From: Peristeroidobacter soli
Lineage (GTDB): Bacteria; Pseudomonadota; Gammaproteobacteria; Steroidobacterales; Steroidobacteraceae
Assembly: GCF_004138485.1 (NCBI RefSeq)
Contig: NZ_RYEV01000005.1
Span: 248,001 to 312,000 of the forward strand
DNA length: 64,000 nucleotides
Reading direction: 5' to 3'
Below are positions 45,398 to 63,857 of the stretch, piece after piece (the first letter of the stretch is position 1; each line of letters opens with the position of its first letter). Both the position numbers and the translations under genes were made by a program. The notes beneath the pieces are model-generated. The model did not search any database, had not been told where the DNA came from, and saw nothing but the letters and a program-made list of their open reading frames with translations.

Positions 45398-45618
45398 TGT
45401 CGACGCCGGTTGAGCCGGACTTTGTCATAACCCGCTGGGGCGCAAGTCTGCGGCCGGAAACGCTTATTGACAAGGCAAATCGATAAAGTGTCGATCGCCA
45501 TTACACAATGGCGAGCAATAGTTCATTGGCATCCCATCAATTGAGTCGTGGTGTGCGGTGCGAGGGCACGGCTACCTTCGCGCCGCGATCGACCAGCAAA
45601 CTCAACACGGGGGATGTC

Positions 45619-48755: not shown

Positions 48756-48923
48756 ACATCCTCCCCGGGGTCGGAGCGAGGGTAAAGAACGGTGGCGCGA
48801 ACCAGCCACGCGCCGCTTGATCGCGCACCGATTCTGAATTGATCGGCGCGCAGTCAAAACGATATCGACATCGCATCAACTGTGTCGTGGTAGCGGCGAA
48901 GAGCCGGTCGCTAAGGTACGGCC

Positions 48924-49658
48924 ATGTCGAAAAGATTGGCGGGCAAGGTTTGTCTGGTCACAGGGGCGGCGCAGGGCATCGGCCGTGCTGTCGTCGAAGC
49001 GTTCGCCGCCGAAGGCGCGCGCGTGATCGCGACCGACATCCAGACGGAAAAGCTGCGTGAGCTGGGCAGTGGCGTCGAGGTTCTGGCGCTCGATGTCACG
49101 AATGCCGACAGCGTTCGCGAGGCGGCCCGACGATATCCCGATGTCAACGTACTCGTGAACTGCGCCGGTTATGTCGCGGTGGGCACCGCGCTGGAATGCA
49201 CTCCCGAGGATTTCGCGGCCAGCCTGAGCATCAATGTGACCTCCATCTACACCATGGTGCGGGCGTTTCTGCCTGGCATGGTGGAGCGTCACGACGGCGC
49301 CATCATCAACATCGCTTCGGTGGTCTCGACGACCATGGCGGCGAGTCGGCGCTTCGTGTACGGGGCCACCAAGGGGGCGGTGATCGCGATGACTCGTTCC
49401 GTTGCCTTCGATTTCGTGCGCGAGGGAATTCGTTGCAACTGCATCAGTCCCGGCACCATAGATTCACCCTCTTTGGCCGATCGCTTGAATGCTTTCACCG
49501 ATCCAGGGGCCGCGCGGCAAGCGTTGCTTGACCGGCAACCCATGGGCCGGATGGGCCAGGCGCATGAGATCGCCGCCGTCGCCGTGATGCTGGCGTCGAA
49601 CGAAAGCTCGCTGATCAACGGCGCCGATCTGGTGGTGGACGGAGGCATCAGCATCTGA
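48924..49658 (+). CDS. SDR dehydrogenase, 2-keto-3-deoxy-L-fuconate dehydrogenase-like
   Basis: A 244-residue classical short-chain dehydrogenase. TGAAQGIGR binds NAD(P), NCAGYVAVG follows, and the catalytic Ser-Tyr-Lys are in NIASVVSTTM and YGATKGAV. The closest described family by sequence pattern (MSKRLAGKVCLVTGAAQGIGRA, PSLADRLNA) is 2-keto-3-deoxy-L-fuconate 4-dehydrogenase. Its stop TGATG overlaps the start of an FAH-family hydrolase, the partner enzyme that cleaves the diketo product. Assignment to fucose or rhamnose is inferred. Confidence 0.85.
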   Translation: MSKRLAGKVCLVTGAAQGIGRAVVEAFAAEGARVIATDIQTEKLRELGSGVEVLALDVTNADSVREAARRYPDVNVLVNCAGYVAVGTALECTPEDFAASLSINVTSIYTMVRAFLPGMVERHDGAIINIASVVSTTMAASRRFVYGATKGAVIAMTRSVAFDFVREGIRCNCISPGTIDSPSLADRLNAFTDPGAARQALLDRQPMGRMGQAHEIAAVAVMLASNESSLINGADLVVDGGISI

Positions 49659-50521
49659 TGTCGGCCATGAAGTTGCTCAGATTTGGCCCCAAGGGCGGCG
49701 AGCGTCCCGGATTGCTGGATGGCGAGGGCCGCATTCGCGATCTCTCGGGAGTCGTTGCGGATATCGATGCGCGCACGCTGCCGGACTTGCAGCGTCTGCG
49801 TGTGCCGTCCATCGACAGTCTGCCGATCGTGAATGCCGATGTGCGCATCGGCGCGCCGGTCGCCGGCGTCGGAAAGATCATCTGCGTGGGCCTCAACTAT
49901 TCGGATCACGCCCGCGAAACCGGCCAGGCGATACCTCGCGAGCCCATCCTGTTTCTGAAAGCGACCTCGTCCATCGTCGGCCCGAATGACGACGTGGTGT
50001 TGCCGCCCGGTGCGGAGAAAGGCGATTGGGAAGTCGAGCTCGGCATAGTGATTGCTCGCGAGGCGCGTTATGTGCCGCTGGCCAGCGCGATGGACTACGT
50101 CGCTGGCGCTTGCGTCGTCAATGATGTGTCGGAGCGTAGCTATCAATTGGAGCGAGGCGGGCAATGGGACAAGGGCAAGGGCTGCGACACCTTCTGTCCG
50201 TTGGGTCCCTATCTGGTGACTCTGGACGCAGTCCCGCGCCTCGATGATCTTCGGATGTGGTGCACGGTGAATGGCCGCACCGTCCAGGACGGCAACACGC
50301 GCACCATGATCTTCGACGTTCCCTATCTCGTTCACTACATCAGTCAGTTCATGAGTTTGCAGCCGGGCGACGTCATCAGTACCGGCACGCCGCCGGGCGT
50401 AGGCATGGGCATGAAGCCGCCCCAATGGCTCAAGGAACAGGACATCATGGAACTGGGGATCGAAGGATTGGGAACGCAGCGACAGCGCGTCGTGCGCCAC
50501 ACCGCCGAGGCGCGCTCGTGA
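49658..50521 (+). CDS. FAH-family hydrolase, 2,4-diketo-3-deoxy-fuconate/rhamnonate type
   Basis: A 287-residue protein of the fumarylacetoacetate hydrolase family. Family motifs: GKIICVGLNYSDHARETG, EPILFLKATSSIVGPNDDV, the metal-binding EVELGIVIA, and TGTPPGVGMGM in the active site. FAH enzymes beside a 2-keto-3-deoxysugar-acid dehydrogenase hydrolyse 2,4-diketo-3-deoxy-L-fuconate (or rhamnonate) to pyruvate and L-lactate. The start overlaps the preceding stop (TGATG); an internal ATG at 49667 is also possible. Its own stop overlaps the GTG start of the next SDR. Confidence 0.88.
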   Translation: MSAMKLLRFGPKGGERPGLLDGEGRIRDLSGVVADIDARTLPDLQRLRVPSIDSLPIVNADVRIGAPVAGVGKIICVGLNYSDHARETGQAIPREPILFLKATSSIVGPNDDVVLPPGAEKGDWEVELGIVIAREARYVPLASAMDYVAGACVVNDVSERSYQLERGGQWDKGKGCDTFCPLGPYLVTLDAVPRLDDLRMWCTVNGRTVQDGNTRTMIFDVPYLVHYISQFMSLQPGDVISTGTPPGVGMGMKPPQWLKEQDIMELGIEGLGTQRQRVVRHTAEARS

Positions 50522-51285
50522 CCGACGCAACCAGGCTTGCTGTCGTCACGGGAGGCAACTCCGGTATCGGTCATGAGACCGTCATCGCGCTCGCCAGTCA
50601 GGGCTGGGATGTCGCCGTCAGTTACATTCATGACGAAGCGGCGGCTGCGAATGTGACGCGTCAGATCGAGAGCCACGGCCGACGCGCCTGGGTCAAGCGC
50701 TGCGATGTGGGCATCCGGGAGGATGTCGAGACCTTCTTCGACAACATCGTCGCGGCGTTCGACACAGTCCCGACGCTGCTGATCAACAACGCCGCGGTCC
50801 AGACCTGGAGTCCGTTCCTGCATCTGGAGGAAGCCAGCTGGGATCAGGTCATTCGCACCAATCTGAAGGGCTGCTTTCTGAACACGCAGAAGGCGGCGAA
50901 GCTGATGATCAAAGCGGGGCGGCGTGGCGCCATCATCAACATCGGCTCCGGCTGCAACAAGGTGCCCTTTCCCAATCTGGTCGATTACTCGGCGTCGAAG
51001 TCCGGCATCGAGCAGCTCACCCGGCTCGCGGCCGTCGAGTTCGGTCCGCATGGAATCACGGTCAATTGCGTGGCGCCCGGCGCCATCGAGAACGAGCGCA
51101 CGCGTAAGGAAGTGCCCGACTACGCCGCAACGTGGTCGCGTATCACGCCGATGCGCCGGGTCGGTACGCCGGCCGACGTCATCAACGCGATCCTGTTTCT
51201 GGCCCGCGAGGAATCCAACTTCATCACGGGCCAGACCCTGAGCGTCGACGGCGGCGTCTTTACTCAGCCGAACTGGCCATACTGA
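50518..51285 (+). CDS. SDR-family oxidoreductase
   Basis: A 255-residue SDR starting at GTG 50518 (GTGA overlap). It has TGGNSGIGHET, NNAAVQTW, Ser in GSGCNKV and the YSASKSG active-site Tyr/Lys. LFLAREESNFITGQTLSVDGG marks the classical family. In this operon it may be the L-fucose or related sugar 1-dehydrogenase that opens the pathway, or another oxidoreductase; the sequence alone does not decide. Its last 26 bases overlap the convergent AraC regulator gene. Confidence 0.85.
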   Translation: MTDATRLAVVTGGNSGIGHETVIALASQGWDVAVSYIHDEAAAANVTRQIESHGRRAWVKRCDVGIREDVETFFDNIVAAFDTVPTLLINNAAVQTWSPFLHLEEASWDQVIRTNLKGCFLNTQKAAKLMIKAGRRGAIINIGSGCNKVPFPNLVDYSASKSGIEQLTRLAAVEFGPHGITVNCVAPGAIENERTRKEVPDYAATWSRITPMRRVGTPADVINAILFLAREESNFITGQTLSVDGGVFTQPNWPY

Positions 51286-52225
51286 TCCGATTCGGGTGCG
51301 GCTTGCGCTGCAGGTCGGCGCTCGCCTCCGGCACCTGCGGACGGTCCAGCATCCGGCTGCGCTGCTCGCGGAACTGAGTCGGGTTCATGCCCTTGAGCGC
51401 CAGGAATTGCCGGTTGAAGTTGGCGATGTTGTTGTAGCCGCAATTCATGGCGATGTCGGTGATGCCTGCTTCGCCCTCCATCAGCAGGCGGCACACCTCG
51501 TTGATGCGCAGGATGTTCACGAACCCGACGAAGGTCTGGCCGGTGGCCTTGCGAAAGAAGCGGCTGAACGCCGGCGGCGTCAGGCCGACCAGCGCGGCGA
51601 TTTCCGACTGACTGACTTCGCGGCCGAGATGCTGTCGCACGTAACGATGAATGAACTCGATGCGCTGGCGGTTGGTCTCGGTGATGTCGTTGGTGATGTG
51701 ATAGTCGGCGCTGGCCAGCGCGCGCAGGTCGTCGGGCGCCTGCGCCATGACCTGCAGGATCTCCAGCAAACCCATCAAGCGCTCCAGCCCGGTCTTGCGA
51801 AAGATCGATTTCATCAGGCCCTGCACGCGCGTGGCCGTCTCACCCTGAATATGTAAGCCGCACTTGGACGCGCGGAACAGGCGGTTGATGGGCGCGAGCT
51901 CGGGCAGGCCGAGGAAATCCCCGCCGAAGCTTTCAGGGCGAAACTGCAGGACGATGGCTTCGGAGCCATGTTCCTGCGCGCCGAGATCGGTTTCGTCGTG
52001 CCAGCAGTGGGGCAGATTGGGGCCGAGCAGCACCAGGTCGTTCTGTTCGTAGCGCTCGATGCTATCGCCGACGAAGCGCGTGCCGGCGCTGCGCACCACC
52101 CAGCTGAGCTCGAATTCGGGGTGATAGTGCCAGGTGTGGTCGTCGGCCAGCCGGGCGCAGGAAAACCAGAGGCTGCAGAAAGAGCTCTCGTTGTCGGTCT
52201 GCACGTTCTCGAACTTCGGTTCCAC
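51260..52225 (-). CDS. AraC-family transcriptional regulator
   Basis: A 321-residue regulator. The GTG at 52225 is chosen because GAGGGGA lies 6 bases upstream; ATG 52261 and TTG 52288 are in frame but lack a Shine-Dalgarno. Residues about 15-110 form a cupin-like sensing domain (HYHPEFELSWVV, LLGPNLPHCWH). Residues about 195-300 hold two helix-turn-helix units (EIAALVGLTPPAFSRFFRKA, ITDIAMNCGYNNIANFNRQF). It diverges from the TonB receptor gene, so it likely controls sugar uptake and the adjacent catabolic genes. Confidence 0.9.
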   Translation of the reverse strand: MEPKFENVQTDNESSFCSLWFSCARLADDHTWHYHPEFELSWVVRSAGTRFVGDSIERYEQNDLVLLGPNLPHCWHDETDLGAQEHGSEAIVLQFRPESFGGDFLGLPELAPINRLFRASKCGLHIQGETATRVQGLMKSIFRKTGLERLMGLLEILQVMAQAPDDLRALASADYHITNDITETNRQRIEFIHRYVRQHLGREVSQSEIAALVGLTPPAFSRFFRKATGQTFVGFVNILRINEVCRLLMEGEAGITDIAMNCGYNNIANFNRQFLALKGMNPTQFREQRSRMLDRPQVPEASADLQRKPHPNRISMASSAE

Positions 52226-52240
52226 GTCTGTCCCCTCAAC

Positions 52241-52254
52241 GGCACCCGGGTGCC
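52241..52254. promoter_or_regulatory. 14-base perfect palindrome in the araC-tonB receptor gap
   Basis: GGCACCCGGGTGCC is self-complementary and lies 15 bases upstream of the AraC start codon, inside the divergent control region. It could be a regulator operator. No bound factor can be named from sequence. Confidence 0.4.
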
Positions 52255-52376
52255 GGAGCATATTAAAACTGTACGTGTGGCTGGCCAACTATTGCGTAGT
52301 CGGCAACTGCGACGCTGTGTCCTAATCTCACCACAGTAGCGCGGACCCTGAAGAGTCCGTCACAGCGAGGGGGAGC

Positions 52377-54623
52377 ATGAAGTACAGAAATCGCGGCTTG
52401 ATTTTCGTTTGTGCCTGGTCGGTGGCGGGCGTGGCGTCGGCTCAGTCGACCAAACAGGCGGTCGAGCCGAATTCGCAACTGCTGGAAGAAGTGGTGGTGC
52501 AGGGCTATCGCATCGATGCGTCCACCAGCGCCACCGGCATCGTCACCAGCATCCTGGACACGCCGATCTCGATCACGGCCCTGACCAGCGAGTTTCTCAG
52601 CGACACCGGTTCGCAGCAGATGATGGATGCGATCAGCTCGATGACCGGCGTCATGGGTCAAAGCAACAGCGGCGAGGTCGGCACCAATTTCGGTGTGCGC
52701 GGCTTCGCCGTCACGCCCCAGGTGGATGGCTTCGATACGCTGTCGACTGCGGCGGGCCTGGGCTCCTCGGTGGGCGTGGAGCGCATCGAAGTGGTCAAGG
52801 GCCCGTCCGCGGTGTTCAACGGCAACGTGCCGCCGGGCGGCACCATCAACATCATCTACAAGAAGCCGTCGTTCACACGGAAGAATTACATTGAAGTGGG
52901 CTATGGCAGCTGGGATTACAAGAGCGCGGAGGTCTTTTCGACCGGCACGCTGGGCTCCGACAAGCTCGCCTATCTGATCAACGGCTATCTGAAGGACATG
53001 GATGGCTGGGTGAAATGGACCGGGCAGAAGGAGCAGACCGTCATCCTCGGCCTGACTTACAAGCCCATCGACGATCTGACTCTCTCCGTGAACTATCGCA
53101 AGGCCGATGTCGATACGCGCGCCTCGACGTTGCCGGTCAGTCACGAGGGTTTCATGGGATCGGGCACGCCGTGGTTCGTGCCGCTGGATGCGTGGGTCGG
53201 CGCGAATTACGGACCGACGGAGCCGATCCAGACCATCACCGTCGAGGACTACCTGCCGGGCGGCAAGCGTTACAACGTGCTCGGCCCGCAAAACCTCAAC
53301 CAGGCCGAAGTCGAGATGGCCAGCTTCGATGTGAATTATCGGATCAACGACCACATCGAAGTGCGCAACGGTTTCTTCTACAACACGTATCTGTGGCAGC
53401 CGCTCGCGCTGATCCAGAGTGGCGCCAAGGTGCTGGGTGCCGACGGCCGCTCCAGCATTCTTTCCATGTTCCTCGGCGGCCGAACCGGCGAGACCGGTTG
53501 GCAGAACAAACTCGAGGCGGCGCTCGACTTCGACACCGGTCCGATCAGTCATCAGATGCTGGTGGGCTATTCCGACTCGTACAGCGAGGCGGATATTCTC
53601 GAGGCTTACATCGGGGCACCGGCGATCAATTCGAACGGCGAGCCGTGGGACTATCGCACTGACGGCCCGCGCATGTTGCGTGATGAGTTCAACGCGCGTC
53701 TCGCTACCAATCCGACGCCCGACATTCTTTCCACCGACTATGCGCACACACGTACGCATGCGTACTACATCGCCGAGCAGGCATCGATGTTCGACGGTCG
53801 TTTGCGTGCGCTCGTCGGCGGTCGCTACACCGAGACCACGGTTTCCGGACTGCGTGTTACAGATACGACACCGCAGGCCGGCCTGGTGATCAAGCCGTTC
53901 CCGGGCGATTCCTCGCTCGCCGATACGTCGATCTTCATGAACTACTCGGAGTCGTTCACGCCTTCGGGGCTGTTACAGCCGGGGACCGACCAGGTCGTTC
54001 CGCCCGCGCAGGGCACGGGCAAGGAAATCGGCATCAAGACCGCATGGTTCGGTGGCGAGGTCGCGAGCACGATCTCCGTGTTCCGCGACGACCTGGGTAA
54101 CATCGCGACGCCAGATTATTCCACGCAAGGTCAGACCGGCAGCATTGTTTCCTATCACCTCGGCGGCAAGGGACGAACCGAAGGCGCCGAGGCCGAGGTC
54201 GTGTGGACGCCGAGCCGCAGTCTGCAGCTCTCCGCCAACTACACCTATATGCCGACGGCTGAGTATCTGGCTTATCCCGGCGTGCCGCAGATGGTCGGTC
54301 TGCGCTTCGGCAGCACACCCAAGGAGCAGTGGAATCTCAGCGGTCGCTATGCGTTCGACCAAGGACTGCTGTCGGGTGCGTACGTCGGCGCCTGGGTTCA
54401 TGGGCAATCGAGCACTCAAGGCGTGATGGCTGGAGATTGGCAGTACGCAGTCCGGCTTCCGAGCCTGGTGCAGGCCGATCTGTTCGCCGGTTACGCGTTC
54501 AACAAGCTCGAGGCGCGCGTGAACGTCAAGAACGTCGGCAACCGCGGCGGCTATGTCATGAACAACGTGTTCCAGCCCAACTCACCGAGATCGGTGTACC
54601 TTACATTGAACTATTCACTGTAA
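52377..54623 (+). CDS. TonB-dependent outer-membrane receptor
   Basis: A 748-residue protein with signal peptide MKYRNRGLIFVCAWSVAGVASA. The plug domain starts EEVVVQGYRIDAS and includes SNSGEVGTNFGVRGFAVTPQ and VGVERIEVVKGPSAVFNG. The 22-strand barrel ends LTLNYSL. By plug pattern it is of the siderophore-receptor type (CirA/FhuA-like), which also includes oligosaccharide and natural-product importers. The genes after it encode periplasmic and cytoplasmic glycoside-processing enzymes, so a glycosylated substrate is as likely as iron. The Shine-Dalgarno is GAGGGGG. Confidence 0.92.
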   Translation: MKYRNRGLIFVCAWSVAGVASAQSTKQAVEPNSQLLEEVVVQGYRIDASTSATGIVTSILDTPISITALTSEFLSDTGSQQMMDAISSMTGVMGQSNSGEVGTNFGVRGFAVTPQVDGFDTLSTAAGLGSSVGVERIEVVKGPSAVFNGNVPPGGTINIIYKKPSFTRKNYIEVGYGSWDYKSAEVFSTGTLGSDKLAYLINGYLKDMDGWVKWTGQKEQTVILGLTYKPIDDLTLSVNYRKADVDTRASTLPVSHEGFMGSGTPWFVPLDAWVGANYGPTEPIQTITVEDYLPGGKRYNVLGPQNLNQAEVEMASFDVNYRINDHIEVRNGFFYNTYLWQPLALIQSGAKVLGADGRSSILSMFLGGRTGETGWQNKLEAALDFDTGPISHQMLVGYSDSYSEADILEAYIGAPAINSNGEPWDYRTDGPRMLRDEFNARLATNPTPDILSTDYAHTRTHAYYIAEQASMFDGRLRALVGGRYTETTVSGLRVTDTTPQAGLVIKPFPGDSSLADTSIFMNYSESFTPSGLLQPGTDQVVPPAQGTGKEIGIKTAWFGGEVASTISVFRDDLGNIATPDYSTQGQTGSIVSYHLGGKGRTEGAEAEVVWTPSRSLQLSANYTYMPTAEYLAYPGVPQMVGLRFGSTPKEQWNLSGRYAFDQGLLSGAYVGAWVHGQSSTQGVMAGDWQYAVRLPSLVQADLFAGYAFNKLEARVNVKNVGNRGGYVMNNVFQPNSPRSVYLTLNYSL

Positions 54624-54638
54624 GAGGCTGGCGGAGCG

Positions 54639-56231
54639 ATGCTGACATTCGATCGTCGGACGTTTTTGCAACAAGCCGGCGTGGCGACGGTGGCGCTCGG
54701 GATGGGTGCCACATCGCTGCGTGCGTTCGCGGATGAACGCGCGACACCAGAAGCCGCGGGCGTTTCGTCACAGGCGATTCGAGCGTTTCTGGACGCGGTT
54801 GCCGGTTCGAAGCATGAGATGCACAGTCTGATTCTCATGCGCCACGGGCAGAACGTGGCCGAAGGCTGGTGGCAACCGTATCGCGCCACTACGCCGCAAA
54901 CTCTGTATTCGTTGAGCAAGAGCTTCACCTCGACCGCGGTGGGGCTCGCGGTCGCGGACGGCAAGCTCAAGGTGACGGATCGGGTCATCGACTTCTTTCC
55001 CGACCAGTCGCCCGGCGGCGTCAGCGAGAATTTACATGCGATGCAGGTTCAGCACTTGCTCACGATGTCGGCGGGCCACTCTGCTGATACGGCGCCGCTG
55101 ATCACTCACGAACAGGATTGGGTGAAGGCGTTTCTGGCGCTACCTGTCGAGCATGTGCCGGGCAGCACGTTTGTTTATAACAGCGGCGCCACCTACATGC
55201 TCTCCGCCATCGTGCAAAAGGTGACGGGGCAAAAGCTGATCGATTACCTGCGTCCCCGCCTATTAAAACCATTGCGGGCTCGCGTGGTTCAGTGGGCGAC
55301 CTGCCCGCGCGGCATCAACACTGGCGGATGGGGGCTGAGCATAACCACGGACACGCTCGCGAAGTTCGGTCAGCTGTATTTGCAACAGGGACAGTGGAAC
55401 GGTGCGCCGTTGTTGCCGGAAGCCTGGGTGAGGGAGGCGACGACCTTCAAGATCCAGCAACCGGCGACCGCGCCCGGCAGCGACCTCGCCCAGCTGAAAC
55501 AAACCAGCGATTGGCACCAGGGCTACGCCTATCAGTTCTGGCGTTGCCGCCACGACGGCTTTCGCGGCGACGGTGCGTTCGGGCAGTACTGCATCGTGCT
55601 GCCGAAACAGGATGCGGTGATCGCAATCACGAGCGCGACTGCCGACATGCAAGGCTTGTTGAACCTGGTATGGGAGCATCTGTTGCCTGGCCTGCGAGAC
55701 AAGCCGCTGCCGGTGACTGCGGCTTCGAGTTCGAAGTTACAGGAACAACTCGCCGCGCTGACGTTGCCGGTGCCGGCAGGTTCGAAAACATCGCCGACGG
55801 GTGCTCGAATCAACGCTCGCAGCTTCACGCTGGAATCCAACAGCCTCGGGGCCAAGAGTGTGGCGCTCCGCTTCGATGGCGATGCTTGCAAGTTCGAGCT
55901 GACGACGGGGACGGGCAGCTTCGATGTCGATTGCGGGCTCGGTCGCTGGGCCGATGGCACGACTTCCATGCCCGGCACACCGCCAGAAATCTCTGAATTG
56001 GTCGGACCGCCCGTGGGGCCGCAGCGGCCGGCGAACGTCGGGGCCGCGGGGGCATGGAAAGACCCGAACACTTTCCAGATGCAGTGGCGCTTCTACGGAA
56101 CGCCCCATCACGACGACGTGACGTGTCGCTTCGATGGCGACGGCGTGCAAGTCGAATTCAAGAACAGCATCACGACACTCAGCGGCGGCGGGCATCCCGA
56201 GACGCGGCCGATATTGAAGGGACGAGCCTGA
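54639..56231 (+). CDS. Tat-exported serine hydrolase, class C beta-lactamase family
   Basis: A 530-residue enzyme. DRRTFLQQAGVATVALGMG is a Tat signal. The beta-lactamase-related domain has SLSKS (Ser-x-x-Lys nucleophile, YSLSKSFTST) and the YNS tyrosine motif (FVYNSGATY). The last 130 residues form an extra beta-rich domain (FDGDACKFELTTGTGSFDVD ... RFYGTPHHDDVTCRFDGDG). The family includes esterases, transesterases and D-aminopeptidases; removal of acyl groups from a glycoside would suit this operon. It lies 15 bases after the receptor gene. Confidence 0.85.
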   Translation: MLTFDRRTFLQQAGVATVALGMGATSLRAFADERATPEAAGVSSQAIRAFLDAVAGSKHEMHSLILMRHGQNVAEGWWQPYRATTPQTLYSLSKSFTSTAVGLAVADGKLKVTDRVIDFFPDQSPGGVSENLHAMQVQHLLTMSAGHSADTAPLITHEQDWVKAFLALPVEHVPGSTFVYNSGATYMLSAIVQKVTGQKLIDYLRPRLLKPLRARVVQWATCPRGINTGGWGLSITTDTLAKFGQLYLQQGQWNGAPLLPEAWVREATTFKIQQPATAPGSDLAQLKQTSDWHQGYAYQFWRCRHDGFRGDGAFGQYCIVLPKQDAVIAITSATADMQGLLNLVWEHLLPGLRDKPLPVTAASSSKLQEQLAALTLPVPAGSKTSPTGARINARSFTLESNSLGAKSVALRFDGDACKFELTTGTGSFDVDCGLGRWADGTTSMPGTPPEISELVGPPVGPQRPANVGAAGAWKDPNTFQMQWRFYGTPHHDDVTCRFDGDGVQVEFKNSITTLSGGGHPETRPILKGRA

Positions 56232-56233
56232 CA

Positions 56234-58024
56234 GTGGGATTCATTACCGCCGACGCGGCGTTGAAGTCGCAGTATGACGTGATCGTGGTGGGCTCTGGCG
56301 CCGGCGGTGGCCAGGCAGCCTATACGCTTGCAATGGAAGGCGCGCGCGTACTGATGCTCGAAGCGGGGCGCCGTTACGATCCCACGACCGAAACGCCGAT
56401 GTTTCAAACGCCGGAGCAGGCGCCGTTGCGAGGCTGGATCACCTCGGACAAACCTTTCGGTTTCTACGACGCGACGGTGGACGGCGGTTGGGAAGTGCCC
56501 GGCGAACCGTACGTTCAAGGCAGCACGCAACCGAGTGAGAAATTCACCTGGTGGCGCGCACGCATGCTCGGCGGTCGGACCAATCATTGGGGACGCATCT
56601 CGCTGCGTAACGGTCCCTACGATTTCAAACCGCGCACGCGCGACGGTCTCGGCTTCGATTGGCCGATCTCTTATGAGGAACTCGCGCCGTACTACGACAA
56701 AGTAGAGATGCTCATCGGCGTGTACGGATCGAAGGAAGGCCTGGAGAACACGCCGGACTCTCCCGATGGGATTCTGTTGCCGGCACCGAAGCCGCTGGTC
56801 AGCGATTTGTTGATTGGCAAAGCAGGCGGAAAACTCGGCATCCCGATGGTCGCCTGTCATCGCGCCGTGCTGACGGAACAGCTCGACTGGAAACGTTCGC
56901 CGGCCAAACTGCATCCGGGCAACGCCGCCGCGCAGGCCATCATCGCGGCCGACATGAAGAAGCGAGCGGCGTGTTTCTGGGCGACCCCTTGCGGCCGCGG
57001 TTGTTCGATCCGTGCGAACTATCAATCGACGACTGTTCATCTGCCGCCGGCGCTGGAGACGGGGCGGCTCGATATCGTCACGGATGCGATGGTTCGCGAG
57101 GTCACGCTTGCCAAGAACGGCAACGCGTCCGGCGTCATTGCCATCGATAGAAAAACACGCCGGGATTTCCAGGTCACGGCACGCGCGGTGGTGTTGGCGG
57201 CGAGCGCGCTGGAGTCGGTGCGCATTCTTCTGAATTCCGGGCGAGGGCTGGCGAATTCGAGCGGCAAGCTCGGCAAGTACCTGATGGATACCGTCGGCAG
57301 CGACCTTTCGGGGCAGATCCCGATGCTGGAGAACATTCCACCGCACAACGAAGACGGTGTCGCGGGCGGGCACTTGTATTCGCCCTGGTGGCTCTACAAG
57401 GAGCAGCGGGCCGGTAAGCTCGGCTTCGCGCGCGGCTATCACATCGAGTTCGGTGGTGGCCGGCACATGCCGGAGGTATCGACCGCGATGGGGTTGGAGT
57501 GGCTGACGGGCGGCAGCTATGGCGCGAAGTTCAAGGAAGACGCGCGTCGCTACTACGGCTCGATGGTTTACTTCGCCGGTCGCGGCGAGATGATTCCCAA
57601 CGAACATTCCTATTGCGAGATCGATCCTGTCATCAAGGACAAGTGGGGTATCCCGGTGCTGCGTTTCCATTGGAAGTGGTCGGAGCACGAGACGCGTCAG
57701 GCGGCCCACATGCAAAAGACTTTCGCGCAGATCATCGAAGCGATGGGCGGGCGCGTGCAGGGGCGCGCGGAGACCGATGGCACCAAGGCGATTGCGGCCG
57801 GTGGCAGCATCATCCATGAGGTCGGCGGTGCGATCATGGGCGACAACGCGCGCGACTCCGTGGTTAACAAGTGGTGCCAGGCCTGGGACGTGAAGAATCT
57901 GTTCCTGGCCGACGGCGCACCGTTCCCGTCAAACGCCGACAAGAACCCGACGCTCACGATCATGGCGAACGCCTGGCGTGTGGCCGATCACATTCTGGAT
58001 CGCATGCGTCGCAAGGAGCTGTGA
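56234..58024 (+). CDS. GMC-family oxidoreductase (probable sugar/glycoside 3-dehydrogenase)
   Basis: A 596-residue flavoprotein. The GTG at 56234 gives MGFITADAALKSQYDVIVVGSGAGGGQ, with GSGAGGG binding FAD; the upstream frame overlaps the previous gene. GGRTNHWGR and VPGEPYV follow, and the C-terminal block NADKNPTLTIMANA carries the GMC active-site Asn after the HEVGGAIMGDN His. It has no signal of its own. Together with the downstream subunit 3-like protein it matches the glucoside 3-dehydrogenase / gluconate dehydrogenase architecture, which oxidises a sugar hydroxyl in the periplasm. The exact regiochemistry is inferred. Confidence 0.88.
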   Translation: MGFITADAALKSQYDVIVVGSGAGGGQAAYTLAMEGARVLMLEAGRRYDPTTETPMFQTPEQAPLRGWITSDKPFGFYDATVDGGWEVPGEPYVQGSTQPSEKFTWWRARMLGGRTNHWGRISLRNGPYDFKPRTRDGLGFDWPISYEELAPYYDKVEMLIGVYGSKEGLENTPDSPDGILLPAPKPLVSDLLIGKAGGKLGIPMVACHRAVLTEQLDWKRSPAKLHPGNAAAQAIIAADMKKRAACFWATPCGRGCSIRANYQSTTVHLPPALETGRLDIVTDAMVREVTLAKNGNASGVIAIDRKTRRDFQVTARAVVLAASALESVRILLNSGRGLANSSGKLGKYLMDTVGSDLSGQIPMLENIPPHNEDGVAGGHLYSPWWLYKEQRAGKLGFARGYHIEFGGGRHMPEVSTAMGLEWLTGGSYGAKFKEDARRYYGSMVYFAGRGEMIPNEHSYCEIDPVIKDKWGIPVLRFHWKWSEHETRQAAHMQKTFAQIIEAMGGRVQGRAETDGTKAIAAGGSIIHEVGGAIMGDNARDSVVNKWCQAWDVKNLFLADGAPFPSNADKNPTLTIMANAWRVADHILDRMRRKEL

Positions 58025-58659
58025 TGGACAGACGTACCACCATCAAATGGGTGCTCGCCGCGTCGGCGTCGATGCCGTTGCTCGAGTACTGCGACGAGGT
58101 TCTTGCCGCGCCGTCGACCAAGACGACGCCAGCGGTTGCAAAACCGTACGGCACCGATCCGAATCTGTTGCGCGTGTACAAGCCGGGCGATCTCTGGCCA
58201 CTGACATTTACGGCGGATCAGCGGGCAACGGCTGCCGTGTTGTGCGATCTGATCATTCCAGCGGATGCCAGGTCGCCGAGTGCTTCGTCGGTGGGCGTGG
58301 TCGACTTCATCGATGAGTGGGTCAGCGCGCCGTACGAACCTCAGCGCGCCGATCGGGCAGTCGTGGTCGACGGACTGCAGTGGCTCGATCAGGAATCAAG
58401 CCGGCGTTTCTCCAAACCGTTCCGACAGCTCGGGGTGAGTCAACAGCGACAGGTCTGCGACGATATCTGTTATCTGCCGAAGGCAAAGCCGCAGTTCAAA
58501 CAGGCTGCCGTGTTCTTCGCTCGTTATCGCGATCTGACCGCGGGCGGTTTCTATACGACGCCGCAAGGCCGTAAAGATCTCGAATACATCGGCAACGTGC
58601 CGATGCCGAGCTTCAACGGACCGCCGCCCGAAGTGCTGAAGAAAGTGGGATTGCTATGA
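58024..58659 (+). CDS. gluconate 2-dehydrogenase subunit 3-like protein
   Basis: A 211-residue protein starting at the ATG of a TGATG overlap with the GMC gene. MDRRTTIKWVLAASASMPLL is a twin-arginine signal, so it can carry the GMC subunit out by hitchhiking. FTADQRATAAVLCDLIIPADA is the family hallmark. Such small subunits pair with GMC dehydrogenases in gluconate, glucoside and fructose dehydrogenases. No cytochrome c subunit is encoded nearby, so the electron acceptor is unknown. Confidence 0.87.
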   Translation: MDRRTTIKWVLAASASMPLLEYCDEVLAAPSTKTTPAVAKPYGTDPNLLRVYKPGDLWPLTFTADQRATAAVLCDLIIPADARSPSASSVGVVDFIDEWVSAPYEPQRADRAVVVDGLQWLDQESSRRFSKPFRQLGVSQQRQVCDDICYLPKAKPQFKQAAVFFARYRDLTAGGFYTTPQGRKDLEYIGNVPMPSFNGPPPEVLKKVGLL

Positions 58660-59657
58660 CACAACCGCAGCTTCGATCGCGACGACAGGTGCTTGCAGGT
58701 CTCGGCGCCTTTGCCGCCGCCGCGATGTTGCCGACGTTTCGGGCGCAGGCAAACACGCCGGCTGCCGCGGGTGGGAGTGCGCCATGGTTGTTGGGGTTGC
58801 AGCTCTACACCTTGGAGGACGCGCCAGCGAAAGATCTGGACGGCACACTCGAAGAGGTCGCGGGTATCGGCTATCGAACCGTACAGATCTCACAATCGTA
58901 TGGCCAATCGGCGCAGCGTCTGCGGGCTGCGCTGGATCGGGCTGGGCTGTCTTGTCCCGCGATTCATGTGTTGCCACGTCCTGCAAAGAACAGTTGGGAT
59001 CTCGAAGGCGACCTGTCGCGACTCGCCGATGACATCTACACCCTGGGCGCGACCCATGCCGTCGTTCCGGCGCCGCGCTATTCAGATGCGCTCGTCGACG
59101 CGCTGAATCATCCGCCGCCCGGCGGTTTCAACGCGGCAAAGCTGCTTGGAGTGCTGAAGCTCATGGGAGCGGACGACTGGCGGCGAACCGCCGACCTGAT
59201 GAACGAGAAGGCGGAGATCCTGGCGCGCTCGGGCATTCGTGTCGGCTATCACAATCATGGCTTCGACTTCGTGCCGCTGGAACAGGGCAAGAGCGGCTTC
59301 GACATTCTGTGGGAGCGCACCGATCCGAAACTCATCGACCTCGAGCTCGACATCGGCTGGGCCGTGACCGCCGGGCAGGATGTCAAAGCGCTGTTCCACC
59401 GCGCCAATGGTCGCATTCGCACCGTGCATCTCAAGGACACGGCCAGGGTGTCGAGCAATCCCATGGACCTGGCCTCGACCGATGTGGGCACAGGCATCGT
59501 CAACTGGCGAGAAGTGTTCGAACTGATTCGCGAGACCCGAGTCCGCTACCTGTTCGTCGAGCAGGAAGCGCCATGGGTGAATACATCGCCGATGAAGGCC
59601 GCGCGAGTGGCCTACGCCTATCTCAGCAAACAGTTTGGACACGCGGCATTCCGATGA
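58656..59657 (+). CDS. Tat-exported sugar isomerase/epimerase-like TIM barrel
   Basis: A 333-residue protein starting in an ATGA overlap. SRRQVLAGLGAFAAAAM is a Tat signal. The xylose-isomerase-like AP2Ec barrel shows LGLQLYTLEDAP, GYHNHGFDF (metal-binding His), DLELDIGWAVTAGQ and TVHLKDTARV. Members of this group next to 3-keto-sugar dehydrogenases have been linked to elimination or isomerisation of 3-keto-glycosides. That role is inferred from context. Periplasmic location matches its GMC partner. Confidence 0.86.
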   Translation: MTQPQLRSRRQVLAGLGAFAAAAMLPTFRAQANTPAAAGGSAPWLLGLQLYTLEDAPAKDLDGTLEEVAGIGYRTVQISQSYGQSAQRLRAALDRAGLSCPAIHVLPRPAKNSWDLEGDLSRLADDIYTLGATHAVVPAPRYSDALVDALNHPPPGGFNAAKLLGVLKLMGADDWRRTADLMNEKAEILARSGIRVGYHNHGFDFVPLEQGKSGFDILWERTDPKLIDLELDIGWAVTAGQDVKALFHRANGRIRTVHLKDTARVSSNPMDLASTDVGTGIVNWREVFELIRETRVRYLFVEQEAPWVNTSPMKAARVAYAYLSKQFGHAAFR

Positions 59658-61627
59658 TGATATTCAACGAACGTCACTCTGTGCTGAGGAGCACCGCTGG
59701 GATTGCTTCACAGGCGACCGGATTGTGGTCGCGATGCTTGCGTGCTTTGGTGGGGGCGACTGTCGCGCTCCTTGCGATGAGCGGCATTGCTTCCGCGTCC
59801 GAGCCTGATTTCGCCGCAAAGGGACCGGGCTCGCTGGTCGAAGCGAAGGTCGTCACCGACATCGACGAATCGATCACTGCCCTCCGGGCGACAGCGGTGC
59901 GTGTGAAGTATCGCTCGACGTCCGGTCGTGACGGCTCCTCCACCGTCGTCTCCGGCATGATCTTCGTGCCTGCGGGCACGCCGCCACCGGGCGGCTGGCC
60001 GGTGCTGGCGCATGCACACGCAACGGCGGGCATCAACTACGAATGCGGTCCCTCGCTGTCGAAAACCATGTTTGGCACCGTGCCGATGATGGCGGCTTCG
60101 CTGAAGATGGGCTACGCCGTCGCGGCGGCAGACTACGAAGGGCTCGGCGCGCCGGGCGTCCATCTCTATCTCGGCGCCAGGACTGAAGCATGGAACGTCA
60201 TCGATTCGGTGCGTGCGCTTCGTCACTTCCGGCCCGGCGCGATTTCCGATCGGTGGCTGGTGTTCGGCGGCTCGCAGGGCGGGGCGGCCGCATGGGCAAC
60301 AGCGGAACAAGCGGTGACTTACGCGCCCGAACTGAATCTGCTCGGCGCCGCGGCGCTGGTCCCGCCGACGGATTTTTCCGAGTATGCGCAGATGGCGGCG
60401 GACGGCTCGTTCAATGAGTTCCAGAAGGCCGCCTACATCTGGATGCTGATGACTCAGCATCGCGTCAATCCCAAGCTGGACCTCGATCTCTATAGACGCG
60501 GCTCCGCGGCGAAAAATTGGCAGGCGCTTTCCTATTGTTTCGGCCCACACGAGCAAGAGCGTGCGGAAGCTTTGCAGAAAGTCACAGCCGATGAGATCAA
60601 ACCGGCAACGCCGGCGGCCACTCAGCACATGGCGAAGCTGCTCGAGGCGATGGCGTTACCCCACCAGGCAGCGAAGGCGCCCATGCTGGTGATCTACTCC
60701 GGCAAGGATGAGTTCATCAAACCCGAATGGACCCGCACCGCCATCAAGAAGGCGTGCGCCATGGGCACGAAGATTCAGGAAGTGTTCCTGGCCGACAAAG
60801 GCCACATCGGGCCGAGTTGGGAGATGTCGACGCAATGGCTCAACCAACGGTTGGCGGGCGAGCCGTTCCAGGATACGTGTTCACAGAAAGAAGAGGATTT
60901 TCCGGTCGGATATTCGGACGGTCCCAAACTGCCGGGCAGCCAGTGGCGCGTCCACGACGAGAAGCGCCCGCGTCCTGCGATCGTCACACCTGCCGCGGCC
61001 GAGGGTAAGCCACCGTCCGACGCCGTCGTCTTGTTCGATGGAACAGACCTGAAGGAATGGGTCTCCGCCAAGGACGGCTCTTCCCCAAAGTGGAAGATCG
61101 TGGACGGCGCGATCCAGGTCGTCGCGGGCACCGGCGATATCGTCACAAAACAATCGTTCGGCGACAGTCAGCTGCACGTCGAGTTCGCGACGCCGGCGCT
61201 GCCCATCAATCGCAGTCAGTGGCGCGGCAACAGCGGTGTGTTCTTGTATGGTCTGTATGAGGTGCAAATACTCGACGGCTATCAGAACCTCACCTATGCG
61301 GACGGCGAGGCCTCCGCCATCTTCGGTCAGTCGCCACCCCTGGTGAACGCGTCGCGCCCGCCGGGCGAATGGCAAAGCTTCGACATCGTCTATACCGGCC
61401 CGCGCTTCAAGGACGGCAAAGTCACGACGCCAGGCTACGTCACGGTGTTTCACAACGGTGTGATCACGCAGAATCACACGCAGATCCTGGGCACGACATT
61501 GTTCCACCAACTGCCCGGCACGGTGGTGCACGGTCCGACGGGACCGATCAAGTTGCAGGATCACACCTATCCGCTGCGTTTTCGCAATATCTGGATTCGA
61601 CCGCTGCAACCGACCGCTCCGGAGTAG
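59654..61627 (+). CDS. fusion of alpha/beta hydrolase and DUF1080 (3-keto-disaccharide hydrolase-like)
   Basis: A 657-residue exported protein starting at the ATG of an ATGA overlap (59654). A signal peptide spans residues about 25-47 (ALVGATVALLAMSGIASA). Residues about 50-405 are an alpha/beta hydrolase of the secretory lipase group: nucleophile Ser in FGGSQGGAA, Asp in YSGKDEF, His in DKGHIG. Residues about 450-655 are a DUF1080 / 3-keto-disaccharide hydrolase domain: VVLFDGTDLKEWV, NSGVFLYGLYEVQILDG, FRNIWIRPL. I infer one part de-esterifies and the other cleaves the oxidised glycoside. The pairing in one chain is unusual. Confidence 0.86.
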   Translation: MMIFNERHSVLRSTAGIASQATGLWSRCLRALVGATVALLAMSGIASASEPDFAAKGPGSLVEAKVVTDIDESITALRATAVRVKYRSTSGRDGSSTVVSGMIFVPAGTPPPGGWPVLAHAHATAGINYECGPSLSKTMFGTVPMMAASLKMGYAVAAADYEGLGAPGVHLYLGARTEAWNVIDSVRALRHFRPGAISDRWLVFGGSQGGAAAWATAEQAVTYAPELNLLGAAALVPPTDFSEYAQMAADGSFNEFQKAAYIWMLMTQHRVNPKLDLDLYRRGSAAKNWQALSYCFGPHEQERAEALQKVTADEIKPATPAATQHMAKLLEAMALPHQAAKAPMLVIYSGKDEFIKPEWTRTAIKKACAMGTKIQEVFLADKGHIGPSWEMSTQWLNQRLAGEPFQDTCSQKEEDFPVGYSDGPKLPGSQWRVHDEKRPRPAIVTPAAAEGKPPSDAVVLFDGTDLKEWVSAKDGSSPKWKIVDGAIQVVAGTGDIVTKQSFGDSQLHVEFATPALPINRSQWRGNSGVFLYGLYEVQILDGYQNLTYADGEASAIFGQSPPLVNASRPPGEWQSFDIVYTGPRFKDGKVTTPGYVTVFHNGVITQNHTQILGTTLFHQLPGTVVHGPTGPIKLQDHTYPLRFRNIWIRPLQPTAPE

Positions 61628-61630
61628 GAC

Positions 61631-62548
61631 ATGGTCGATCGCGTCAATCTCGACGGCGGAGTCGCCAGTGACGTCGCCATTGTCCGCGACGAACGAGGCC
61701 GGGAGATTGTCGTCAAGCAGGCGCTGCCGAAACTCAAAGTCGCTGCCGACTGGCGTTGCGATCCCGCACGATCCAGTCAGGAGGTCGAAGCGCTTCGAAT
61801 AGCGCCGACGTTCCTGGGCGGCGAAGTGGTGCCTCGGGTTCTGTGGGTCGATGCCGCGAATCATCGATTCGCGATGGAGCGGATCGACGCGAGCCTGCGG
61901 AACTGGCAGGCGCAGCTCAGTGCAGGCGAGGTCAACTTGATGACCGCCGCCCGCATCGGCGAGTTGCTTGCGCGCCTTCAAACGGAGTCCGCTCGCGACT
62001 CCAGTCTGGCGACGACGTTTGGCACTCGTGAATATTTCGAGCTGCTTCGCATCCAGCCGTTCTTTGTGCGAGCGGCCGAGAGGAATCCCGAGGCGCGTGA
62101 GCCGATCGATCGAATCATCGAACTGCTGCGTGCGCCGGGACGAGTGCTCGTCCACGGCGACTACAGCCCAAAAAACATTCTGGCGCGCGATGCGCAGGTT
62201 GTGATCCTCGACTGGGAAGTCGTGCATTGGGGCGAGCCGCGCTTTGACATCGCATTCTGTCTCTCTCATTTGCTCCTGACCGGCTGGCGTCGCGGCAGCT
62301 CGAAGTCTTCTTACTACGCGGCTTGCCATGCGTTTACCGGTGGCTATGCCAAGCGCGGACCGGTTGCCTCGCATGACACCGTGCTCGCCCGAGTCATCGG
62401 CGCACTCGTGCTGGCGCGACTCGATGGCGATTCGCCGGTGAATTTTCTCGACGAGCTCGATGTCGAGGAAGTGAGAAAGCGCGCCCTGAGGCTGCTGCTC
62501 GAACCTGCGCCGGCGTGGTTGGAGCTCTTTGACCGGCTACTGTACTGA
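61631..62548 (+). CDS. aminoglycoside phosphotransferase-family kinase
   Basis: A 305-residue cytoplasmic kinase of the APH/ChoK fold. The brief N-terminal nucleotide loop (VASDVAIVRDERGREIVVKQA with the Lys) and a catalytic loop HGDYSPKNIL plus the metal-binding ILDWEVVHWGEPRFDIAF are intact. Family members phosphorylate drugs, choline, methylthioribose or sugars. Placed after the glycoside genes and before an enolase homologue, it may phosphorylate a sugar or its derivative; resistance is less likely given the context. It is 3 bases after the DUF1080 fusion gene. Confidence 0.86.
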   Translation: MVDRVNLDGGVASDVAIVRDERGREIVVKQALPKLKVAADWRCDPARSSQEVEALRIAPTFLGGEVVPRVLWVDAANHRFAMERIDASLRNWQAQLSAGEVNLMTAARIGELLARLQTESARDSSLATTFGTREYFELLRIQPFFVRAAERNPEAREPIDRIIELLRAPGRVLVHGDYSPKNILARDAQVVILDWEVVHWGEPRFDIAFCLSHLLLTGWRRGSSKSSYYAACHAFTGGYAKRGPVASHDTVLARVIGALVLARLDGDSPVNFLDELDVEEVRKRALRLLLEPAPAWLELFDRLLY

Positions 62549-62561
62549 GATTGCTGCGCTC

Positions 62562-63857
62562 ATGAATCCTTCGCGAATCGCTTCTTTGAAGCTGCGTCAG
62601 ATCCTCGACTCTCGCGGTCGCCCGACCGTCGAGGCCGATGTGATCTTGCATGACGGGTCTTTGGGTCGTGCGTCGGTGCCCTCGGGTGCTTCCACCGGCA
62701 AATACGAAGTCCGCGAGTTGCGAGATGGCGATGCCGAGAGCTACGAGAGCTACGGAGTTCAATCCGTCGTCGCGACTGCGTTGCAAGCCTGTGAAGGGCA
62801 GATGCAGGGCGTGGATGCGCTCGACCAGACTGCGGTCGATGCAACGCTACGCTGGATCGATGGCACACCCGACCTCGGACGCGTCGGTGCCAACCCCATT
62901 CTCGCGCTGTCTCTTGCAACCGCTAGAGCTGCGGCCGCGCATGTGCGTCAGCCCCTGCATGTTTATCTCAGATCGCTCGTGCCCGGCGTGGCGCCGTCCA
63001 TGCCGATGCCAATGACAAACATCCTGAGCGGCGGAGCGCATGCCGGAGGAGGCATGGACTTCCAGGACTTCCTCGCGATGCCAGTCGGCGCAACGACGTA
63101 TTCTCAAGCACTGGAGTGGATTGCCCGCGTTCGCAGCGCCGCTGCACGTTTGATGGCGCAAGAGGGTCGGGTCACATTGCTGGCGGACGAGGGCGGTCTG
63201 AGCCCGGGTTTCGAAAGCGCCGAGCAAGCGTTGACGCTGATGGTGCGGGCCATCGAGGCCGCACGACTGCGACCGGGACATGACATGGCCATCACCATCG
63301 ATGTCGCTGCGAGCCAGCTATATGTGGAGGAGCAACGTTGCTATCACTTGCGCCGCGCCGGCCGCGAGCTGACTTCTGATGCGATGATGTCCTATGTGTT
63401 CGACTTGTGCGGCAAGTACCCGATCGTGTCGGTGGAGGATCCATTCGATCAGGACGATTGGGAGGCGTGGCAATCGTTCACTCGCAAGCTTGGCGATCGC
63501 TCGCTACAACTCGTCGGCGATGACTTCTTCGCGACCAACGCGCAACGCCTCGCTTCGGGGATCGAACGGCAGGTGGCGAATGCCGTACTCATCAAGGTCA
63601 ACCAGAACGGCACCTTGAGCGGCACTCTCGACGTCATGGCACTGGCCCGCAAGGCCGGCTATGCGACCGTGGTGTCCGCCCGCTCGGGTGAAACCGAGGA
63701 CTCATTTATTGCCGATCTGGCCGTGGCCACCGGCGCGGGCCAGATCAAGATCGGATCGGTGCGCAATTCGGAGCGGCAGTCCAAGTACAATCAGTTGCTG
63801 CGGATCGAGGAGGAGGCGGGGTTGACGTTCGCTGCCTTCATGCACAAACGGCGCTGA
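62562..63857 (+). CDS. divergent enolase-family protein lacking the active-site histidine
   Basis: A 431-residue enolase homologue from the ATG at 62562. Conserved: SGASTGKYE, His160, Glu210 in ADEGG, the metal ligands Asp247, Glu292, Asp320, and Lys345 and Lys396 matching catalytic residues. Changed: Ala373 where true enolases have the conserved His of S-H-R-S-G-E-T-E-D (here SARSGETED), and Asp169 in place of the catalytic Glu of the QEF motif. The C-terminal tail is short. It is therefore doubtful as a glycolytic enolase and more likely acts on another phosphorylated or acidic substrate. It is 14 bases downstream of the kinase. Confidence 0.9.
   Translation: MNPSRIASLKLRQILDSRGRPTVEADVILHDGSLGRASVPSGASTGKYEVRELRDGDAESYESYGVQSVVATALQACEGQMQGVDALDQTAVDATLRWIDGTPDLGRVGANPILALSLATARAAAAHVRQPLHVYLRSLVPGVAPSMPMPMTNILSGGAHAGGGMDFQDFLAMPVGATTYSQALEWIARVRSAAARLMAQEGRVTLLADEGGLSPGFESAEQALTLMVRAIEAARLRPGHDMAITIDVAASQLYVEEQRCYHLRRAGRELTSDAMMSYVFDLCGKYPIVSVEDPFDQDDWEAWQSFTRKLGDRSLQLVGDDFFATNAQRLASGIERQVANAVLIKVNQNGTLSGTLDVMALARKAGYATVVSARSGETEDSFIADLAVATGAGQIKIGSVRNSERQSKYNQLLRIEEEAGLTFAAFMHKRR

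Follow-up and report, generated by a model that had tools for sequence, protein, structure and literature searches.

The window analysed here, a stretch of 64,000 nucleotides from Peristeroidobacter soli (contig NZ_RYEV01000005.1, positions 248,001 to 312,000), encodes side by side on its plus strand a kinase of the APH fold (61631..62548) and an enolase paralogue (62562..63857). The two genes recur as neighbours in many bacteria and in haloarchaea, and the paired enolases form a single clade with fixed substitutions in the active site. We tentatively regard kinase and enolase as a module that phosphorylates and then dehydrates a small acid with hydroxyls at C2 and C3, L-glycerate being the most likely, a reading to which we give slightly less than even confidence. 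Its more specific form is possible and somewhat more doubtful: an APH-type L-glycerate 2-kinase would make L-2-phosphoglycerate, which the paired enolase, being of inverted stereochemistry, would dehydrate. Through these two steps, bacteria and haloarchaea could convert L-glycerate, a remnant of L-sugars such as L-galactose, to phosphoenolpyruvate (PEP) by a dedicated route. Few enzymes are as conserved as enolase. If true, the proposal would add a new specificity to a core enzyme, tie a widespread enolase clade to a kinase of its own, fill an as yet unassigned step in sugar breakdown, and correct the automatic annotations 'eno' and 'aminoglycoside phosphotransferase'. Among the papers listed by our searches of the open-licence literature, none described a pathway in which this kinase and enolase take part. 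A sequence-only reading of the same DNA had likewise known of none that joins glycoside oxidation to an APH kinase and an enolase.

To collect relatives of the kinase, we searched a species-level genome collection with a profile of three kinases and analysed the best 80 of at least 568 confirmed relatives. An enolase homologue adjoined the kinase in 67 of these 80 loci, downstream in 65 and upstream in 2, and the estimated gap between the genes was within 60 bases in 54 of the 65 downstream loci (maximum, 873). In six of the 13 kinase loci lacking an enolase, the contig stopped less than 1 kb from the kinase; the other seven spanned 10 kb. By record title, the paired loci include members of Acidobacteria, Verrucomicrobia, Chloroflexi, Spirochaetaceae, Pirellulaceae, Nocardia and Proteobacteria. 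The pair also occurs in a record titled as a Bordetella parapertussis metagenome-assembled genome (MAG; L118), a taxon label that may be wrong. From 32 plasmid matches we took 16 regions, two of them unannotated. Three haloarchaeal plasmids carry the pair, which extends its range to Archaea, and the annotated plasmid records name the paired enolases eno or enolase. The kinase-enolase pair is a portable module, travelling with different catabolic routes.

We then compared 82 paired enolases (64 from contig loci, those of the window, of the same-genus genome G007 and of G001, and 15 plasmid copies from the 16 stretches) with 39 housekeeping enolases from the window genome, eight relatives and 30 carriers. 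Residues are numbered as in yeast enolase by way of conserved motifs, which we take to fix the correspondence for the window and paired enolases. Rows of 330 residues or fewer were left out, which reduced 70 extracted rows to 67; to judge by length, L055, L104 and L107 were probably the rows omitted. L104 has both Asp168 and Ala373, L107 has Asp168 only and L055 shows neither site. Residue 168 was Asp in all 82 paired enolases and Glu in all 39 housekeeping enolases. Residue 373, His in all 39 housekeeping enolases, was Ala in 79 of the paired enolases and Gly, Thr or Val once each. Similarly, the Gly preceding Asp-Glu211 was replaced by Ala in 81 of 82, and T397 by Val or Ile in 80 of 82, both positions being invariant (Gly and Thr) in the 39 housekeeping copies. 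H159, D246, E295, D320, K345, R374, S375 and K396 were unchanged in all 82, and E211 in 81, one plasmid copy having Lys; one housekeeping enolase has Ile at 345. At the Ser39 position, the paired enolases are split between Ser (42) and Ala (40). In a FastTree phylogeny, all 82 paired enolases formed a single clade with a support of 1.0 and no housekeeping copy within it. These copies are not all independent, as the two Spirochaetaceae loci, the Haladaptatus plasmids and the Rhizobium plasmids each comprise close kin. A second enolase homologue, 31% identical to the window enolase, lies in a genome of the same order (G045:C19:14998-16245).

In yeast enolase, the leaving hydroxyl or water is held by Glu168, Glu211 and His373, which places the fixed changes on the leaving-group side. 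An L-substrate would exchange the roles of the two faces and would thereby need changes on that side; a larger substrate would need room there.

The window genome has an ordinary enolase elsewhere (G000:C4:191223-192455), 47% identical to the paralogue, and an ordinary enolase was found in all 36 genomes tested, as a short fragment only in G065 and G074. A search for D-glycerate kinases of classes I and II found one in 29 of 35 genomes: 17 had class I and 13 had class II, one genome counting in both. Both genome sets include G082, whose kinase relative has no adjoining enolase. The general presence of an ordinary enolase and a D-glycerate kinase therefore argues for a new substrate for the paired module.

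Neighbouring genes may point to the source of this substrate. They were counted by single-seed tblastn (E 1e-12) anywhere in a locus, with genes called by a simple open reading frame (ORF) script, so the counts are approximate; 44 of the 67 contig loci were at least 15 kb long. SDR1-like proteins (general SDRs included) were found in 19 of the 67 contig loci, FAH-family hydrolases in 13, LacI in 12, D-2-hydroxyacid dehydrogenase types in 11, SMP-30 in 6, MR/MLE in 5, aldehyde dehydrogenase (ALDH) in 4, HpcH in 3, LarA-like, UxuA, RraA and GMC proteins in 2 each, and IlvD/Edd and DHDPS in 1 each; PEP carboxylase, DUF1080, subunit 3 and TIM-barrel seeds matched in none. The 16 plasmid stretches gave hydroxyacid dehydrogenase in 9, FAH in 7 and PEP carboxylase in 4 (one cut by the stretch end). 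A Pfam tally covered 96 proteins, most of them chosen from 145 operon neighbours, its permease and IlvD members being assigned from length, sequence and position.

From the 21 loci with a FAH match, we picked 11 pair-FAH loci for comparison (L026, L050, L053, L076, L082, L088, L094, L098, L125, L130 and L134). Their FAH proteins are about 50–55% identical to that of the window (49658..50521, plus strand), and in 9 of the 11 the FAH gene is followed by an SDR 41–44% identical to window SDR1 (48924..49658, plus strand); the SDR is more distant in L026 (31%) and L053 (29%). SDR1 resembles an L-2-keto-3-deoxyfuconate (L-KDF) 4-dehydrogenase: its best PDB matches (8xwk/8y11/8y4j, 7.7e-68) are L-KDF dehydrogenase, L-KDFDH, according to PMC11199699. 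The best PDB match of the FAH protein, a probable 2,4-diketo-3-deoxy-acid hydrolase, was the L-2,4-diketo-3-deoxyrhamnonate hydrolase 8gsr (4.5e-93), and its score against NF053535 was 400.4 bits, under the cut-off of 500. L-KDF dehydrogenase accepts the 6-hydroxy analogue L-KDGal with a 5.3-fold lower kcat/Km and D-KDGlu with a 105-fold lower one, and non-phosphorylating route 3 yields pyruvate and L-lactate from 6-deoxy-L-sugars (PMC11199699). Because L-lactate has no 3-hydroxyl to eliminate, kinase and enolase are sensible only if the sugar keeps its 6-hydroxyl and the product is glycerate. By analogy, an L-sugar with a 6-hydroxyl would give L-glycerate through the FAH/SDR route. The FAH hydrolase and the SDRs account for kinase and enolase better than glycoside oxidation does.

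Loci in other genomes suggest which sugar this might be. Genes for FAH, SDR and mutarotase proteins come after the pair in G001, and about 9–20 kb beyond lie genes for DGOK, ALDH, MR/MLE and SMP-30 proteins, an agarase-CBM protein and a sugar transporter; G011 shares the kinase-enolase-FAH-SDR order. Locus L108, of Microbulbifer sp. HZ11, reads porphyranase (minus strand), ALDH, kinase, enolase, CBM6 protein (minus strand), MFS transporter, agarase-CBM protein, SMP-30-like protein and sulfatase (minus strand). These agar and porphyran settings suggest L-galactose, as judged from gene content. As for the product, genes for PEP carboxylase, a CtBP-like hydroxyacid dehydrogenase and the kinase are consecutive on three Rhizobium plasmids (L122, L129 and L135), and the PEP carboxylase of L122 retains the AHPTE and FHGRGG motifs; PEP is therefore favoured as the product. 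In a Negativicutes MAG (L084), the kinase and enolase genes precede that of a LarA-type lactate racemase homologue and then that of a probable L-lactate permease.

Several of these loci have features of their own. The L084 genes may form an operon for glycerate uptake and racemisation. On the three Rhizobium plasmids, the altered enolase lies beside VOC, cupin and flavin-reductase-like genes, which look like a ring-cleavage pathway. On plasmids of two Rhodococcus species (L120 and L131), a common FAH-CtBP-enolase-APH-FAH order lies near cupin, DoxX and acyl-CoA-type genes. An Enterobacter plasmid (L123) carries a weaker kinase relative (34% identical to the L098 kinase) with no enolase annotated alongside; its cluster of a U32 peptidase, an aminotransferase, an iron-containing redox enzyme and an M14 peptidase looks like a small biosynthetic cluster.

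From gene content, synteny, pairing, residue changes, the enolase clade and the additional ordinary enolase, we infer the reactions, the substrate with its handedness and the order of the steps as follows. The serine hydrolase, the GMC oxidoreductase with its subunit 3, the TIM-barrel protein and the lipase-DUF1080 protein encoded upstream of the kinase would deacylate and oxidatively open a glycoside, thereby supplying a sugar. In the cytoplasm, SDR1, the FAH hydrolase, SDR2, the kinase and the enolase would convert the sugar to pyruvate and PEP, with a sugar-acid dehydratase and a lactonase drawn from elsewhere in the genome. Acting on a 6-hydroxylated L-sugar such as L-galactose, the FAH/SDR route would release L-glycerate; the kinase (L-glycerate 2-kinase) would place a phosphate on C2, and the enolase (L-2-phosphoglycerate dehydratase) would remove water to give PEP. 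Both enantiomers of 2-phosphoglycerate are sold commercially, as shown by catalogue numbers given in PMC13228409.

A number of observations weigh against this proposal. We know of no precedent for an enolase with inverted stereochemistry, and the residue changes could fit a larger substrate equally well, so that sequence by itself cannot tell the two apart. Seven of the 80 kinase relatives have no enolase despite 10 kb of downstream sequence. The three Rhizobium plasmids separate the two genes of the pair: the enolase is encoded four genes further along, on the opposite strand. PEP carboxylase, on which the argument for PEP draws, was found in no contig locus and in only 4 of the 16 plasmid loci. 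In six contig loci outside the 11 compared, the best FAH segment was only 34–48% identical. The Pfam matches of the window block include neither an aldonate dehydratase nor a lactonase; elsewhere, the window genome has 7 IlvD/Edd and 9 MR/MLE matches above the cut-offs. No agarase match was found within the window. The published anhydro-L-galactose pathway runs via a 2,5-diketo acid to 2-keto-3-deoxygluconate (KDG; PMC5943477), and the word enolase does not occur in the main text of that paper; a kinase-enolase route would thus be an alternative branch. What weighs most heavily against the L form are the D-2-hydroxyacid dehydrogenase types, which occur at 11 of the 67 contig loci and, on plasmids, at 9 of 16. 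This family normally produces D-hydroxyacids, so D-glycerate is favoured where it occurs.

The same neighbours lead to an explanation that we consider unlikely and yet the most serious competitor: the kinase would belong to a fourth class of D-glycerate 2-kinases, of the APH type, and the enolase would be an isoenzyme reserved for ordinary 2-phosphoglycerate. The hydroxyacid dehydrogenases (hydroxypyruvate/glyoxylate reductase-like) and the PEP carboxylases of Rhizobium agree with it, as does the finding that the window genome, G001 and G011 gave no match to a class I or class II glycerate kinase. A dedicated enolase would then carry fixed changes of no obvious use, since all 36 genomes tested have an ordinary enolase and 29 of 35 a D-glycerate kinase. 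Also unlikely, and slightly more so, is that the kinase phosphorylates C2 of a C4–C6 aldonate and that the enolase is its dehydratase, in place of the missing sugar-acid dehydratase, with the pocket opened by Glu168Asp and His373Ala accommodating the C3 substituent. The changed residues surround the leaving-group site known from yeast enolase, and no dehydratase is encoded in the window block, nor do the incomplete gene tables of two plasmids list one near the pair. Dehydratases do occur near the pair elsewhere (IlvD/Edd and MR/MLE in L053, MR/MLE in L050 and G001, UxuA in L115), and the PEP carboxylase and LarA/permease neighbours indicate a C3 acid.

Two further explanations seem to us improbable. 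The enolase could eliminate a leaving group other than water from a PEP-like skeleton, or serve a non-catabolic role; both main changes lie on the leaving-group side, and the Rhizobium and Rhodococcus plasmids have ring-cleavage-like neighbours, but the tallies brought to the fore no neighbour family that would supply a particular other substrate. That an ordinary duplicate enolase stands by chance beside an unrelated kinase is hardly credible: the enolase does score above the phosphopyruvate hydratase equivalog cut-off, and plasmid records call its relatives eno, but both the neighbouring position in 67 of 80 loci and the fixed substitutions of the single clade contradict it. An L-glycerate module remains our preferred, if tentative, reading.

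In the window, the pair closes a run of seven plus-strand genes in the order serine hydrolase, GMC oxidoreductase, subunit 3, TIM barrel, lipase-DUF1080, APH kinase and enolase. The sequence-only reading had described these as head to tail, with overlaps or gaps of at most 15 bases and a TonB receptor in the lead, and the junctions and Pfam matches bear this out. The receptor (52377..54623; PF00593 108.4 bits, PF07715 47.6 bits) stops at 54623, leaving 15 bases before the ATG of the serine hydrolase, a member of the beta-lactamase/esterase family (54639..56231; PF00144, Beta-lactamase, 121.1 bits, cut-off 27). Two bases separate the latter from the GTG of the GMC oxidoreductase, a putative glycoside 3-dehydrogenase (56234..58024; PF05199, GMC_oxred_C, 86.7 bits, cut-off 24.6, and PF00732), which overlaps subunit 3 in TGATG (ATG at 58024). 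The gluconate 2-dehydrogenase subunit 3-like gene (58024..58659; PF13618, Gluconate_2-dh3, 85.5 bits, cut-off 23.4) overlaps in ATGA with that of the xylose-isomerase-like TIM barrel, a putative 3-keto-glycoside lyase (58656..59657; PF01261, AP_endonuc_2, 67.8 bits, cut-off 31.1), and a second ATGA overlap, at 59654, joins it to the lipase-DUF1080 gene (59654..61627; PF03583, LIP, 65.0 bits, cut-off 23; PF06439, 3keto-disac_hyd, 142.6 bits, cut-off 26.8). A 3-base gap precedes the kinase (PF01636, 52.6 bits, cut-off 23.2), and a 13-base gap separates it from the enolase when the latter starts at the ATG at 62562; the ORF list places the start at TTG 62529, overlapping the kinase. The enolase, in which Asp replaces Glu168 and Ala replaces His373, scored 308 bits against Enolase_C (cut-off 21.5). 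The serine hydrolase, subunit 3 and TIM-barrel proteins were judged by eye to bear Tat-type signals.

The coherent unit is larger than this run and comprises 12 genes (about 48924–63857), so taken because the same gene set recurs in G007. The gene list of the sequence-only reading had left out the FAH hydrolase and the SDRs, with which the block reaches left to 48924. Besides the receptor and the SDR1 and FAH genes described above, its left part holds SDR2 (50518..51285, plus strand; adh_short_C2 191.3 bits), perhaps a sugar 1-dehydrogenase or 3-keto-sugar reductase, for which comparison with PDB profiles gave no specific match, and an AraC-family regulator (51260..52288, minus strand; HTH_18 70.8 bits). 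An aldose 1-epimerase (mutarotase) gene just outside (47739..48857, minus strand; PF01263 222.1 bits) has a 33% identical homologue in the G001 cluster and is a loose member. Further left (45508-47682), beside the cluster, lies the gene of a possible secreted glycosidase; its product carries an F5/8 type C domain at the C terminus and matches a glycoside hydrolase core below the threshold.

Conservation of the gene order, which the sequence-only reading had proposed to look for in related genomes, was found in one genome of the same genus. By tblastn, G007 keeps the order from SDR2 (74.5%) through AraC (76.9%), TonB receptor (76%), serine hydrolase (60%), GMC (77%), subunit 3 (71%), TIM (67%), DUF1080 and kinase to enolase at 60–77% identity; just past the conserved run lie SDR1, 71% identical over the part present, and, on the opposite strand, the FAH hydrolase (74.6%). 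The proposed fusion of an alpha/beta hydrolase with DUF1080 is present in the window; its hydrolase part matches a secretory-lipase family, and the G007 homologue consists of the DUF1080 part alone (73%). Matches to the mutarotase and the F5/8-type protein were not found within G007 stretches L037 and L039. A strong kinase homologue with adjoining enolase occurs in 4 of 60 genomes searched (the window genome G000, G007, G001 and G011), and the join of exported and cytoplasmic halves only in G000 and G007. The sequence-only reading had made its combined pathway depend on linkage of kinase and enolase homologues to GMC/DUF1080 genes elsewhere, and here the outcome is divided: the genes are linked in G007, but the 67 outside loci with the pair gave GMC in 2 and DUF1080, subunit 3 and TIM in none, so that a general pathway is not supported. 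We rejected a general link of GMC and DUF1080 genes to the pair on these counts; the two GMC homologues outside the genus are in L091, directly before the kinase, and L108. Linkage of GMC and DUF1080 to the pair is a local addition.

By their family matches, the exported proteins fit the uptake of an acylated glycoside and its opening by oxidation. The proposed likeness of GMC, subunit 3 and DUF1080 to known 3-keto-glycoside chemistry agrees with these Pfam matches, as does the TIM barrel. The serine hydrolase scored 348.3 bits against NF045925 (3-succinylated cholic acid synthase), under the cut-off of 800 and well above the other named models listed, and may act on the glycoside as an esterase or acyl transferase.

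LacABC is, we assume, of the GMC plus subunit 3 type. DUF1080 proteins next to LacABC-type dehydrogenases have been proposed as 3-keto-glycoside hydrolases (PMC9007349), and the window resembles that pathway in having an exported DUF1080 protein near a dehydrogenase that would oxidise glycosides, with DUF1080, GMC and subunit 3 each above the Pfam gathering score. It differs in the lipase-DUF1080 fusion, the serine hydrolase and the join with a putative pyruvate/glycerate route. With the non-phosphorylating L-fucose/L-rhamnose route 3 (FucF-FucG, LRA5-LRA6; PMC11199699), the window shares a putative FAH diketo-acid hydrolase, an SDR that resembles L-KDF dehydrogenase in sequence and a nearby mutarotase, but adds a kinase and an enolase, which are not needed for L-lactate. 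Glycerate kinases have been described as classes I, II and III (PMC2063504). The reaction proposed here is likewise an ATP-dependent 2-phosphorylation of glycerate feeding an enolase; by contrast, the window kinase has an APH fold, its Pfam matches being PF01636 and a sub-threshold PF02958 only, with no PF02595 or PF13660, and its proposed substrate is L- rather than D-glycerate. Its profile matched methylthioribose kinase best in the PDB (2olc, 6.4e-12), but the protein misses TIGR01767 (54.2 bits, cut-off 275) and its neighbours differ. Aminoglycoside resistance was set aside, as no specific resistance family was among the family matches. Compared with enolase itself (TIGR01060), the window paralogue scores 498.8 bits against an equivalog cut-off of 300, and the paired copies retain the metal ligands, the Lys345 base, Lys396, E211, R374 and S375, whereas all 82 have lost both Glu168 and His373, the latter replaced by Ala in 79.

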